64,000 bases of DNA from Flavobacterium daemonense (lineage in GTDB: Bacteria; Bacteroidota; Bacteroidia; Flavobacteriales; Flavobacteriaceae): assembly GCF_007341385.1 (NCBI RefSeq), contig NZ_VJYD01000019.1:1-64000 (forward strand), read 5' to 3'. Numbering within the stretch: position 1 is the first letter of the stretch; each line of letters begins with the position of its first letter. This document shows, one piece after another, positions 11,311-54,075 of the stretch. The translations under genes and the position numbers were made by a program. Below the pieces are notes generated by a model. That model had not been told where the DNA came from. It did not search any database and worked only from the letters and a program-made list of their open reading frames with translations.

Positions 11311-11339
11311 CTTTGTCAAAGTTTTAAACTTTGACAAAG
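11311..11339. repeat. 29-bp palindrome, CTTTGTCAAAG family
   Basis: CTTTGTCAAAG-TTTTAAA-CTTTGACAAAG is perfectly self-complementary at both ends. A near-identical copy lies at 38102-38132. It follows the serine hydrolase and could act as its terminator, though no T-tract follows. Confidence 0.8.
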
Positions 11340-11358
11340 ATATCACATAGCTTGTCTA

Positions 11359-11515
11359 GTCCCTACGGGACATTATATATCATTCATGTGTTTTTTTCTA
11401 CCAATATTTAACTCCTAAAAGAGCATTTCTTTATCAAACTCTTCAAAAAAAAATCTCGTAGAGATTTCATATTGGTAAACAAGCTTATATAGACTTTTTT
11501 TTGTCCCTTAAGGGC
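11359..11515. repeat. Diverged inverted pair of REP-like two-hairpin units
   Basis: Two copies of the repeat found beside the transposase at 53.6-54.1 kb, here tail to tail. The left unit is inverted: GTCCCTACGGGAC at 11359-11371, then CTACCAATATTTA and a weak hairpin at about 11411-11424. The right unit is direct: hairpin AAATCTC-GTA-GAGATTT at 11451-11467, then ATATTGGTAAAC, then GTCCCTTAAGGGC at 11503-11515. The stem sequences differ from the 54-kb copies but stay paired, and the TATTGGTA box is kept. The rest of the 366-bp gap (11290-11655) is AT-rich with no gene. Confidence 0.75.
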
Positions 11516-11655
11516 TATACAAATTCCAATAACCATTATGGATTTCTAAGATTTTTTTTTCTTCAAAAATCTAAAATCTAAAATCACAAATCAACAATCT
11601 AAAACCTTGCGTATATTCAAACTAATGCGTATTTTTAGTACTTGAATATGCCGTT

Positions 11656-13875
11656 ATGATAGAAATAGATATTGAGAAAGAAAACAAAGCGATTGCGCAG
11701 GAATACAAGGAATTACTTCGAATAAGTTATCAAACATTAACCCCCGCCGATAAAAAACTGATTCGGAAAGCTTTTGATGTAGCTGTTGATGCTCACAAAG
11801 AACAAAGACGCAAATCTGGAGAGGCGTATATATTTCATCCTATTGCAGTTGCAAAAATTGTTGCCTCAGAAATTGGTCTGGGCGCGACCTCTATCGCTGC
11901 GGCTTTATTGCACGATGTTGTCGAAGATACTCCCATGACAGTTGAAGAAATTGAGCGCTTATTCAATCCAAAAGTAGCTCAATTAGTTGAAGGTCTGACT
12001 AAAATTTCATTGGTTCAAAAAGACTTAAATGCATCAATGCAGGCCGAGAATTTTAGAAAAATGATCTTGACATTGAACGATGATGTACGTGTTATTTTGA
12101 TAAAACTCGCCGATCGTCTTCATAATATGCAGACCATGGATTCGATGGCAGAATATAAACAAACGAAAATTGCTTCGGAAACACTTTATATTTACGCTCC
12201 CCTTGCCCATCGTTTAGGACTTTATAATATCAAAACCAAATTAGAAGATTTAGGCTTAAAATATACTGAACCTACTGTTTACAATGATATTGTGAGCAAA
12301 ATCAGGGAAACTAAAGAGGAACAAGACGCTTATATCAAGGATATTTCAGATGTTTTGAAAAAATCTCTTGATGCTGAAAACATCGATTATATCATAAAAG
12401 GGCGTCCGAAATCTATTTATTCGATTCGCCGAAAAATGCGTGCTCAAAATGTGACTTTCGACGAAGTGTACGACAAATTTGCGCTTAGAATTGTCTATAA
12501 GTCTGATCCCCACGATGAGAAATTTATCGCTTGGAAAATATATTCGATCGTAACAGATCATTACAGACCAAGCCCGAGCCGTTTGCGTGACTGGATTTCA
12601 TCTCCAAAATCAACTGGTTATGAAGCACTTCACATTACCGTTATGGGACCAAAAGGCCGCTGGGTCGAAGTTCAGGTTCGAAGCGAGCGTATGGATGAAA
12701 TCGCCGAAAAAGGTTACGCTGCACATTATAAATACAAAAATGGCGCAACTGAGGAAAGCGGTCTTGATACTTGGCTGAATCTGCTTCGCGAAGCATTAGA
12801 AAGTCCAGAAACAAATGCCGTTGATTTTGTTGAGGATTTCAAAATGAATTTGTATTCAAAAGAAATCTTTGTATTTACGCCAAAGGGAGAAATAAAATCA
12901 CTGCCTAAAGGTGCGACTTCATTGGATTTTGCTTTTAGCATTCACTCTGAAATTGGGATCAAAACTAGAGGAACACGTGTAAATGGACGCCTTGTTCCGT
13001 TAAATCACGAATTAAAAAGCGGTGATCAAGTTGAAGTAATCACTTCTCCAAACCAAAAACCAACGGTAAACTGGTTGGAATATGTAACTACTTCACGTGC
13101 AAAGAACAAGATTAAAAACGTTTTAAACGAAAACACCAAAAAAATTGGCGAGGAAGGAAAAGAACTTCTTACCCGAAAACTAAAACATTTAAAAATTACG
13201 CTTAACGAACAAGTTACAAACGAGTTGGTTAACTTTTTTAAATTAAAAACGAGTTTAGATTTATTTTACAGAGTCGGAATTGGAGCGATTGAAAATCAGC
13301 AGTTAAAGGATTATGCGGCTCAAAAAAGCAATTCGTTTATCAATTTCTTCAAAAATAAAATCAAACGAAATAAAGATACAGCCGACGAGGATATTCATAA
13401 ACCAGTTATCAGCAGCAATTACGACATGCTGGTTTTTGGAACCGAACATGACAAACTGGATTATAAACTTTCGCAATGCTGTAATCCAATTCCGGGCGAC
13501 GATGTTTTTGGTTTCGTGACCATCAATGAAGGAATAAAAGTGCATAAAAAAGATTGCCCGAATGCCATTGGAATGCAGTCTAATTATGCATACCGAATTA
13601 TGAGTGCCAAATGGATTGACTCATCGCAAGAAGAATTCAAAGCGATCATCAATATTACGGGAATGGATGTTTTAGGACTTACAAACCAATTGACAAGGGT
13701 AATTTCGAACAATATGAGCGTGAATATTCAAAGTATTTCGCTAAGCACAGATGCTGGAATTTTTCACGGACAAATTGCGGTTATTGTGAAAAATAACACC
13801 ATTTTGAAAAAGATGATCAATGCAATCAAAAAGATTGATGGTGTTGATAAAGTGACTAGAGAATACCGAACATAA
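11656..13875 (+). CDS. Bifunctional (p)ppGpp synthetase/hydrolase (Rel/SpoT)
   Basis: 739 residues, the usual Rel/SpoT length. Domains in order: HD hydrolase (about 45-200, with intact LLHDVVEDT), synthetase (about 235-370, with GRPKSIYSIRRKM and STGYEALHIT), TGS (about 395-460, VFTPKGEIKSLPKGAT), a helical and zinc-finger-like region containing QCCNPIPGDDV near 605, and an ACT domain at the end. Both catalytic domains look intact, so it can make and degrade the stringent-response alarmone. Monocistronic by position, cytosolic, ribosome associated. Confidence 0.95.
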   Translation: MIEIDIEKENKAIAQEYKELLRISYQTLTPADKKLIRKAFDVAVDAHKEQRRKSGEAYIFHPIAVAKIVASEIGLGATSIAAALLHDVVEDTPMTVEEIERLFNPKVAQLVEGLTKISLVQKDLNASMQAENFRKMILTLNDDVRVILIKLADRLHNMQTMDSMAEYKQTKIASETLYIYAPLAHRLGLYNIKTKLEDLGLKYTEPTVYNDIVSKIRETKEEQDAYIKDISDVLKKSLDAENIDYIIKGRPKSIYSIRRKMRAQNVTFDEVYDKFALRIVYKSDPHDEKFIAWKIYSIVTDHYRPSPSRLRDWISSPKSTGYEALHITVMGPKGRWVEVQVRSERMDEIAEKGYAAHYKYKNGATEESGLDTWLNLLREALESPETNAVDFVEDFKMNLYSKEIFVFTPKGEIKSLPKGATSLDFAFSIHSEIGIKTRGTRVNGRLVPLNHELKSGDQVEVITSPNQKPTVNWLEYVTTSRAKNKIKNVLNENTKKIGEEGKELLTRKLKHLKITLNEQVTNELVNFFKLKTSLDLFYRVGIGAIENQQLKDYAAQKSNSFINFFKNKIKRNKDTADEDIHKPVISSNYDMLVFGTEHDKLDYKLSQCCNPIPGDDVFGFVTINEGIKVHKKDCPNAIGMQSNYAYRIMSAKWIDSSQEEFKAIINITGMDVLGLTNQLTRVISNNMSVNIQSISLSTDAGIFHGQIAVIVKNNTILKKMINAIKKIDGVDKVTREYRT

Positions 13876-38101: not shown

Positions 38102-38132
38102 CCTTTGTCAAAGTTTAAAACTTTGACAAAGG
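38102..38132. repeat. 31-bp palindrome, CTTTGTCAAAG family (copy 2)
   Basis: CCTTTGTCAAAG and CTTTGACAAAGG arms, followed on the plus strand by TTTTT, so it may also terminate the pepT-YdeI transcript. Copy 1 is at 11311-11339. Confidence 0.8.
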
Positions 38133-52553: not shown

Positions 52554-53096
52554 TCACTCAAAAAATTGATTTTCAAAATCATTAATAAAATCGGCAAGTG
52601 CTTTTACGGTTTCAGAATTCGTGATTTTTCCCTCACTGTCCATTTTTCCGCGAATGCCTTGGATTAATAATGTTGAAGAATTATCAAATTTGGCCTCAAG
52701 CGTTTTCATGACAAGCAAAAGTTGCTCATGTCCCATTTCACCTGAAGCGGAAGCAGTGACAAGTCCAGTCTTTTTTCCTGAAAAAACAGTGGTCGAAACA
52801 CACCATTCTAAAGCATTTTTTAAAGTTCCCGGCAAACTGAAAACATATTCCGGCGTGCAAATTAAAACGCCATCGGCTTGAGCTATTTTGTTTCTGAATT
52901 CCGTTACGCTTTTTGGTACATTTTCATTATCAAGATCGGGATTGAAGTGGGGCAATTGATCTAATTTCTCGAAAATTTCGATCTCGAATTCCGATTTAAT
53001 ATTTTCTTAAATGTGTTTTAGAATTTTGAAATTGCTGGCGTTTTTGCGAGTGCTGCCGTTTATCGCGAAGATTTTAATTTTTTGTAGAGAAATCAT
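52554..53096 (-). pseudogene. NADPH-dependent FMN reductase gene broken by an in-frame stop
   Basis: Read on the minus strand from ATG 53096, the frame gives a start with KIKIFAINGSTRKNASN (the flavin phosphate loop), then a TAA stop at codon 30 (53009-53007), and continues without frame change through IKSEFEIEIFEKLDQLPHF, GVLICTPEYVFSLPGTLKNAL and on to the normal end. Joined, it is 180 residues, the usual family length. The 133-residue frame left after the stop (from 52955, TTG) lacks the FMN loop. A single C-to-T or A-to-T change explains it. The transposase gene ends 14 bp upstream. Confidence 0.85.
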
Positions 53097-53110
53097 CCCA
53101 TAAAATATCT

Positions 53111-53572
53111 TTAAATTAATTCTTTAAAGATAAACTTTTCATCAAAATCAATTTCAAATTTATTAAGAAAGTCAATATATTCCTCTCTGAATGTTTTATT
53201 TTTATGATGCAGTTCTTGATTATGAATATAATTTATAACAGCACTCAAATGCGATTTACTATATGAAAATGCCCCATATCCTTCTTGCCATTCAAAATGA
53301 GCATTTACAAATTTGTTTTCATTTATCCATTTTGATGAGTTTTGTTTTATACTTTTCATTAATTCAGAGATAGACTGTACTGGTCTTATTCCAATTAAAA
53401 TATGAATATGATCTGAAACGCCATTTATGGCCAACAGCTTATGGTTATTATTTTTAATAACTCCTGAAATATATTTGTATAATTCATCTTTCCATGTATT
53501 GTGAATGATTGCATTTCTGTACTTTACGGCGAATACAAAATGAATATGTATTTGTGTATATGTGTTGGGCAT
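53111..53572 (-). mobile_element. IS200-like / REP-associated tyrosine transposase (Y1_Tnp)
   Basis: 153 residues, intact. HUH motif D-H55-I-H57-I near the centre and the catalytic Tyr115 in VINYIHNQELHH; the start NTYTQIHIHFVFAVKYR is typical of the Y1 transposase fold. These enzymes cut and join single-stranded DNA at hairpins. A unit of the neighbouring two-hairpin repeat lies 13 bp upstream of its ATG, and four more follow, so it is better read as a REP-associated transposase (RAYT) than as a free IS200. Base use looks like its neighbours. Confidence 0.9.
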
Positions 53573-53584
53573 TTCTTAGATATA

Positions 53585-53649
53585 GTCCCTACGGGACATT
53601 AATTCTTAACTATTTTTTCTTTCTACCAATATTTTATTCCTAACGGAAT
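53585..53649 (-). repeat. REP-like unit at the transposase 5' end (inverted orientation)
   Basis: On the minus strand: hairpin ATTCC-GTTA-GGAAT (53649-53636), then AAAATATTGGTAGAAA, then hairpin GTCCC-GTA-GGGAC (53597-53585), then the transposase ATG 13 bases on. Same order and linker as the plus-strand units further right, but opposite direction. The first stem differs from theirs by a G-C to A-T pair swap. Confidence 0.85.
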
Positions 53650-53751
53650 AGATTTAAGTAATCAAAAATACAAAAAAGAAAGAAAATTCTTAAAAATTTA
53701 TGAGAAGAATATTTTTCGAAGAATAAATTATATTAAGCGACACAAGATTTT

Positions 53752-54075
53752 GTCTCGCCGAGGCTATATTATTGGGTAGAATAAAAATCCTTTAGTTCCG
53801 TTAGGAACTGAATATTGGTAGAAAAATATTAAACGACGTGAAAATTTGTCCCGTAGGGACGATATACATTTGGCGATATAAAAATTCCTCAGTTCCGTTA
53901 GGAACAAAATATTGGTAGAAAAAATATTACGCGATGCAAAATTTGTCCCATAGGGACTATACATTGGGCGAGATAAAATACTGTAGTTCCGTTAGGAACA
54001 AAATATTGGTAGAAAAAATATCAAGCACCACAAAATTTGTCCCGTAGGGACTATATACATTGGGCGATATAAAAA
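53752..54075 (+). repeat. Array of REP-like two-hairpin units, period 94-97 bp
   Basis: Hairpin 1 GTTCC-GTTA-GGAAC at 53795, 53892 and 53986; hairpin 2 GTCCC-GTA-GGGAC at 53848 and 54039, with loop ATA at 53945 and a paired variant GTCTC-GCC-GAGGC at 53752. Conserved linkers: AATATTGGTAGAAAAA after hairpin 1 and TATACATTGGGCGATATAA after hairpin 2. Stem changes keep pairing. Together with the inverted unit at 53585-53649 this fills the 534-bp space between the transposase and the next gene; the antisense ORF through it is spurious. Confidence 0.88.

Follow-up and report, generated by a model that had tools for sequence, protein, structure and literature searches.

A transposase gene and its hairpin array

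The window, i.e., the whole stretch of 64,000 nucleotides of Flavobacterium daemonense analyzed here (contig NZ_VJYD01000019.1), contains on its minus strand an intact open reading frame of 153 aa (53111–53572) for a Y1 (HUH) transposase with the motifs DHIH, WQ, and YIHNQELHH, resembling TnpA-Y1 subclass 1.2. The protein matches Pfam Y1_Tnp with 104 bits, which bears out the intact HUH/Tyr transposase named in an earlier, sequence-only reading of this DNA. Directly upstream of the start codon lies an inverted unit of two hairpins (53580–53649, minus strand), with hairpin A at 53636–53649, the box GGTAG at 53623–53627, and hairpin B at 53585–53597. While this unit has the orientation of the gene, the direct array is found on the opposite strand. 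It opens with a half unit, a degenerate hairpin B, GTCTCGCCGAGGC, read from the sequence at 53752–53764 (plus strand), which forms GTCTC-GCC-GAGGC with one G-T wobble and has no hairpin A before it. Three complete direct units, all on the plus strand, follow at 53784–53880 (hairpin A 53795–53808, GGTAG 53817–53821, hairpin B 53848–53860), 53881–53974 (53892–53905, 53914–53918, and 53945–53957, respectively), and 53975–54075 (53986–53999, 54008–54012, and 54039–54051, respectively).

Each unit consists of hairpin A (GTTCC-GTTA-GGAAC), 8 nt, GGTAG, about 26 nt, and hairpin B (GTCCC-GTA-GGGAC or close to it), and the box follows every hairpin A of the array. Hairpin A occurs as exact GTTCCGTTAGGAAC in the three direct units (starts 53795, 53892, and 53986), and its inverted copy has an ATTCC/GGAAT stem; hairpin B starts at 53848, 53945, and 54039 in the direct units and at 53585 in the inverted one. 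The complete direct units are spaced by 97 and 94, in agreement with the period of 94–97 bp given by the sequence-only reading, which also counted one inverted unit correctly; its four direct units are, however, three complete ones and a half. The window gene is devoid of the inverted 3' unit that many other loci have. When a single unit is folded by itself, its stability is only modest for the direct ones (z −1.4 to −1.7), and the inverted unit reaches z −2.2.

The gene occupies a fixed chromosomal slot. Among 150 genomes drawn from the genus, it lies beside the same neighbors in all eight that carry a homolog at least 81% identical (its own included): to one side are trmD and a gene of 119 aa, to the other are genes for an FMN reductase and a TIM-barrel protein. 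In three genomes (G103, G079, and G052), at least one of these neighbors is missing or past the contig end. The slot without the gene is present in 11 further genomes, in some of which a neighbor is also absent or displaced. Genome G036 carries the gene twice, in neighboring positions, and one copy contains a stop; thus, duplication happens. In genome G075, a transposase fragment persists in the conserved slot (L309:4666–4791), yet at least 27 half-unit matches remain, and the gene was perhaps lost before the repeats. The FMN-reductase-like gene beside the transposase of the window (52554–53097, minus strand) contains a TAA in frame, about 30 codons in, and looks broken in this genome.

Classification of the transposase

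The window protein scores 81.7 bits against the IS200 transposase family of NCBIfam, above the cut-off of 55, and 31.2 bits against REP_Tyr_transpos (RAYT), far below the cut-off of 80. Its tyrosine motif is Y---Q--HH (YIHNQELHH) and not the Y---NP of RAYTs, which defines class 2 in the part of PMC6006769 considered here; Y---Q--HH is shared by 62 of 70 homologs in the genus and 74 of 80 across the phylum. The features that mark subclass 1.2 (Y---Q--HH, WQ, DH[IV]H, a length of about 148 aa, and a low copy number) are all found in the window protein, and its own genome contains one such gene in addition to one further distant Y1 match. The nearest named relatives among the matches listed, which may omit the own genome and very near ones, belong to F. 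sp. UBA7680 (84%) and F. cutihirudinis (80%).

In the predicted structure (pLDDT 83.9), the best E-values are those of the ISDra2 and IS608 TnpA proteins, and the RAYT 4er8 appears at rank 30, with a lower rmsd to the model. Both an IS200 dimer and a RAYT monomer would be compatible with this comparison, since the E-value favors one and the rmsd the other. By membership tests, the protein is classified as an IS200-like transposase of subclass 1.2 (class 1) and not as a RAYT, because it bears the subclass 1.2 motif, scores under the RAYT cut-off, and is accompanied by a box located 3' of the hairpin. Thus, of the REP/RAYT pair proposed by the sequence-only reading, the pairing of hairpins with a transposase is retained, whereas the RAYT membership is not.

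Dispersed paired elements

Exact GTTCCGTTAGGAAC occurs four times in the 4.75 Mb genome, with three copies inside the array and one elsewhere; with up to two mismatches, 61 places are matched versus 22 for the backwards control, and most of 30 such sites that were fetched have no linker and appear coding-like by eye. The purely local repeat that the exact search first suggested was overturned by a covariance model (R1) built from the four window units. A literal search for GTTCCGTTAGGAAC would mimic a refutation because the stems drift between copies. Model R1 gave 53 matches at E up to 10 in the whole genome. Of 20 loci away from the array that were fetched, 19 contain an element; L090 contains none and was left out, and weaker matches (e.g., C29:144123, E 0.7) were excluded from the element count. 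The repeat, whose restriction to this one place would have refuted the sequence-only reading, is thus found at 19 further loci, 18 of them free or nearly free of open reading frames, and its copy number in this genome is in the tens.

All 19 elements carry half-units on opposite strands, both of which are detected at E ≤ 0.01 in 18. The order is B'-A'-A-B in 14 elements, three of which have extra half-units (L072, L074, and L078), and A-B-B'-A' in five (L073, L084, L087, L088, and L089). These paired units without a gene measure about 150–430 bp. The two A stems within one element are often unequal, e.g., ATCTC-GTA-GAGAT together with ACTCC-GTTA-GGAGT, each of which pairs, and the two elements that were folded as single strands gave z −9.7 and −9.8. 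One element (L080) lies within the window at 11337–11535, with a half-unit at 11337–11434 on the minus strand (E 8e-8) and a weaker one, readable despite its E-value of 0.7, at 11443–11535 on the plus strand; it is intergenic and lies upstream of the gene at 11656–13875.

The elements are intergenic. Open reading frames of at least 100 aa cover 2% of their bases versus 88% of their flanks; 17 of the 19 have no overlap, L075 overlaps by 5% and L089 by 50%, and no reading frame spans an element. The neighboring genes are convergent in six cases and point in the same direction in 13; none are divergent. The site orthologous to L080 was compared in 21 relatives, in 14 of which only the stretch before the downstream gene is placeable. 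A second repeat model (R2) detects the element in G121 and G052, and a fragment is visible by eye in G075, whereas G108, G103, G102, and G004, in which both flanking genes were identified, have spacers of 160–219 nt without the element. The presence or absence of this one element, therefore, varies between species.

Stem covariation and a box at a fixed distance

Stem covariation was examined in 45 distinct half-units, three from the array and the others dispersed. Stem cells pair in 99.8% of cases overall (hairpin A, 100%; hairpin B, 99.5%), and changes on both sides occur in eight of the ten stem pairs, with 68 such cells versus 20.2 in shuffles, a value reached in 0 of 500 shuffles; the half-unit alignment was fitted to the model, which favors pairing in all these figures. 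The claim that stem bases vary while pairing holds is thereby substantiated.

The half-unit can be described as a 5-bp hairpin, 8 nt, and GGTA, the last located exactly at +8 in 43 of the 45 half-units of this genome. The same survey was extended to the flanks (up to 700 nt on each side) of 150 homolog loci from the genus and phylum sets, which overlap in a few genomes. When GGTA occurs within 22 nt after a hairpin, it is at exactly +8 in 150 of 176 cases, and GGTA at +8 is present in 74 of the 150 loci, with 11 different stems. Conversely, GT[AG]G of the RAYT type, 0–2 nt 5' of the foot, was found for only two of 647 CC(loop)GG hairpins in these flanks, and no clear conserved 5' partner or guide for GGTAG emerged from them. 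The likening of GGTAG to the guide tetranucleotides of REP hairpins is not borne out, since the box is 3' of the hairpin and usually exactly 8 nt away, while the REP guide is 5' at 0–2 nt. In IS200/IS605 elements, as outlined in the part of PMC8266576 considered here, the guide precedes the hairpin on its 5' side and determines where the DNA is cut. A sequence kept constant on the 3' side, at a distance of 8 nt, may itself be suited to cutting.

The module beside homologs in the genus and the phylum

In the genus set (70 homologs, 68 of which have a long enough upstream region), at least one CC(loop)GG hairpin is located at most 160 nt upstream in 55 of 68 homologs, and two are present in 34, compared with 0.66 and 0 in shuffles; the initial 160 nt of the gene contain none. 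The spacing of the two hairpins is 49–56 in 22 of 37. A hairpin is also present far upstream (−600 to −440) in 15 of 68, because the arrays are long. In the phylum set (80 named loci, mostly Bacteroidota), at least one hairpin is found upstream in 59 of 78 loci (shuffles 1.0; two in 40) and downstream in 57 of 78 (two in 33), with far-upstream hairpins in one of 68. Loops found downstream (TAC, TAAC) are often reverse complements of those found upstream; thus, the flanks tend to be inverted, in the arrangement A-B-gene-B'-A'.

In a tree of 161 proteins, 20 control proteins (homologs of 35–41% identity with the same Y---Q--HH motif) fall outside a clade of 141 members with support of 100/99. 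On at least one side, 135 of the 141 clade members have a CC(loop)GG hairpin no more than 200 nt away; at the 20 control loci, it is present upstream in none and downstream in one, and GGTA at +8 occurs in none. Looser hairpins are located downstream of 15 of the 20 control genes (shuffles 1.2). The control genes do have hairpins of other kinds, so that they can serve as a control for the module itself but not for hairpins in general.

Association between repeats and transposase

The 150 genomes of the genus comprise 52 with a strong homolog (E ≤ 1e-45), 20 with a weaker one, and 78 with none. Model R2 (E ≤ 0.001), whose counts saturate at 27 per genome and are read as presence and rank only, detects repeats in 36 of the 52, six of the 20, and eight of the 78; for the 52 versus the other 98 genomes, p is 2e-11, a value which, as with all association statistics given here, ignores kinship, the genomes being phylogenetically non-independent and compared without tree correction. 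Exact hairpins tell the same story: among the 52 genomes, 27 contain GTCCCGTAGGGAC, 15 contain GCTCCGTAGGAGC, and 33 contain GTTCCGTAGGAAC, compared with four, two, and five of the 78; the copies number 194, 62, and 301 in the former versus five each in the latter and 7, 5, and 23 in the weaker-homolog group. The totals are 557, 35, and 15 copies in the 52, 20, and 78 genomes, respectively, and the backwards controls of the three hairpins yield three, one, and six matches across all 150. The repeat, therefore, follows the transposase; an equal frequency in genomes without the gene, which would have refuted the sequence-only reading, is not observed within the genus.

Exceptions occur on both sides. 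Among the strong-homolog genomes, 16 of 52 are without the R2 repeat and 10 of 52 without all three exact hairpins. Repeats accompany only a weaker homolog in G077 (17 exact copies) and G007 (four), and no homolog in G071 (four exact copies) and in G108 and G148 (nine model matches each); repeats in such genomes may be relics.

Dispersed copies in a genome tend to have the stem type that flanks its gene. Across 50 genomes and 70 fetched loci, which represent a part of the homologs of those genomes, stem copies away from the gene are commoner where the same stem flanks the gene (p 0.004, 0.0035, and 0.00025 for the three stems), and a permutation in which stem labels were exchanged within the 50 genomes gave p 2e-4. 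Exceptions, defined as at least three dispersed copies of a stem not beside the fetched gene, are G056, G057, G063, G075, G092, and G121 for type 1, G057 for type 2, and G015, G051, G052, G078, G079, G105, and G114 for type 3; G092 and G079 have 18 and 29 dispersed copies, respectively, of a stem absent beside the fetched gene. In genome G022, 21 of 23 exact GCTCC-type hairpins lie within 16 kb around a transposase locus (contig C1, about 1032937–1048922), forming a large local array.

Across 296 Bacteroidota genomes, the pattern CCGYTAGG-N11-GGTAG gave 135 matches in 45 genomes; it is too short, because the backwards control is nearly as frequent (117 matches in 87 genomes), and single matches mean little. 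Of the 133 genomes that have a homolog, 32 contain the pattern, compared with 13 of the other 163 (p 1.5e-4). At least five matches are reached in eight genomes (at most four in the control), seven of which have a homolog; in G170, there are 14 matches and no homolog was found. The phylum-wide link between repeat and gene is, therefore, weak.

Proposed role of the locus and alternative explanations

We regard this locus as probably REPtron-like and the source of a repeat family; its Y1 transposase would mobilize the hairpins in trans. The transposase would recognize single-stranded N3CC-loop-GGN3 hairpins followed by 8 nt and GGTA(G) beside its own gene, and would cut, at or guided by the box, and join such hairpin DNA in trans; the gene-less paired units, in either the B'-A'-A-B or the A-B-B'-A' order, would be copied or moved to intergenic sites. 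The gene itself would stay in one chromosomal slot and be inherited vertically, sometimes being lost with the repeats left behind.

An ordinary IS200-type insertion sequence, mobile now or recently, whose internal-deletion copies of A-B-gene-B'-A' gave rise to MITE-like dispersed pairs, appears unlikely to us. The protein does pass the IS200 cut-off of NCBIfam, most phylum relatives also have downstream hairpins with loops often reverse-complementary to the upstream ones, the five A-B-B'-A' elements correspond to a gene locus minus its gene, and two adjacent gene copies exist in G036. However, an insertion sequence is at odds with a single such gene in the own genome and with the same slot in all eight species at or above 81% identity, and deletion derivatives are at odds with the opposite order, B'-A'-A-B, of the other 14 elements. 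Co-occurrence by descent only, with gene and repeats as old features of one clade that need no interaction, is rated as highly improbable. The disregard of kinship in the association tests leaves room for it, as does the large size (4.7–6.5 Mb) of many genomes rich in both, but the within-genome match between the stem beside the gene and the dispersed stem and the flanking of the gene by the module across the phylum with changed stems argue against it.

The least probable of these readings is that the hairpins act in RNA, as a terminator, a 3'-end stabilizer, or an attenuator of transposase translation, their spread being incidental. In many homologs, a hairpin precedes the start codon by about 6–20 nt, which would suit this role, as would the absence of elements between divergent genes and the presence of six between convergent ones. 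On the other hand, termination has no need of a paired symmetric element, the number of copies goes with the transposase, and neither the array nor the 19 elements contain a match at the gathering score of any Rfam family. We know of no role in terminators for a box at +8.

Relation to known systems

The REPtron-like reading draws on the REPtrons and REPINs described for RAYTs (in the parts of PMC3116915 and PMC8266576 considered here). As in the REP/RAYT (TnpAREP) systems of Proteobacteria, a single-copy Y1 transposase lies beside hairpin repeats, the repeats are dispersed and intergenic and form inverted pairs that fold on single strands (two of 19 folded here), and the repeat type tends to match the transposase. 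Unlike in those systems, the protein is of class 1 (Y---Q--HH) and not class 2 (Y---NP), the box is GGTA(G) 3' at +8 and not GT[AG]G 5' at 0–2 nt, and each unit contains two different hairpins, with tens of copies in this genome. The anatomy is REPtron-like, but neither the protein nor the position of the box is that of RAYTs; a parallel system on an IS200-type enzyme is, therefore, proposed. We lean, with considerable reserve, toward the broader view that repeat-enslaved domesticated Y1 transposases arose a second time, on the IS200 side (class 1, subclass 1.2), that they are widespread in Bacteroidota, and that they read a rigid hairpin–8 nt–GGTAG module, the stem of which would co-evolve with the protein, keeping REPIN-like populations independently of RAYTs.

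The protein shares with TnpA-Y1 subclass 1.2, as characterized in the portion of Quentin et al. 2018 considered here (PMC6006769), the motifs DH[IV]H, WQ, and Y---Q--HH, a length of about 150 aa, a low copy number, and an occurrence in Bacteroidetes. In the same portion of that paper, subclass 1.2 is tabulated with "no" REPs and is generally without the typical IS200 terminal structures, and the automatic search demanded GT[AG]G 0–2 nt 5' of the structure; in contrast to that tabulation, a hairpin lies by the gene at nearly all loci of one large clade, with the +8 box at about half. IS200/IS605 elements (IS608 and ISDra2; subclass 1.1) have in common with this locus the HUH/Tyr fold, being the closest solved structures by E-value, and hairpins near the gene. 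They differ from it in that no multi-copy insertion sequence was found in this genome, the slot is fixed, and non-autonomous pairs dominate. TIRYT loci, in the sections of Di Nocera et al. 2013 considered here (PMC3733652), likewise consist of a Y1 gene with inverted repeats on its flanks, and in some species these are accompanied by a small family of repeats; unlike the present repeats, some TIRYT repeats share a GGGGWSAS motif, and 20 of 26 TIRYT examples are placed in subclass 2.1 in the cited portion of PMC6006769. In the same sections of Di Nocera et al. 2013, Bacteroidetes are named as having CGTC repeats but do not appear with the phyla that have GTAG repeats. The MITE described for an endosymbiont of the Bacteroidota, in the part of PMC9769881 considered here, belongs to IS982 and was set aside as unrelated.

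No paper describing these repeats was found in the literature searched, outside which subscription journals mostly lie, so that an earlier description is possible; the suggestion that the flavobacterial form may be uncatalogued agrees with this. REPINs are well studied in that literature, but the work deals with class 2 transposases, chiefly those of Proteobacteria. A parallel IS200-type system with easily changed stems and a constant box would, if true, allow two origins of one partnership to be compared, and subclass 1.2, listed in 2018 without a REP association, would gain a likely substrate. The question of what keeps such transposases would become testable in Flavobacterium.

Other hairpins and repeats

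Among the control loci, L325–L334 (about 36–39% identical, with Y---Q--HH) have 5-bp hairpins with TGAAA or TTTCA loops near six of ten genes, and two further control loci have similar hairpins; this is perhaps a second hairpin–transposase pairing. A Flavo-1 RNA (82.8 bits) is located at L078:2148–2227, near but outside the L078 element. In addition, a palindrome, TTTGTCAAAGTTT..AAACTTTGACAAAG, is present twice in the window, at 11312–11339 and 38104–38131, and this stretch has many further short matches in related genomes, representing a separate dispersed repeat.
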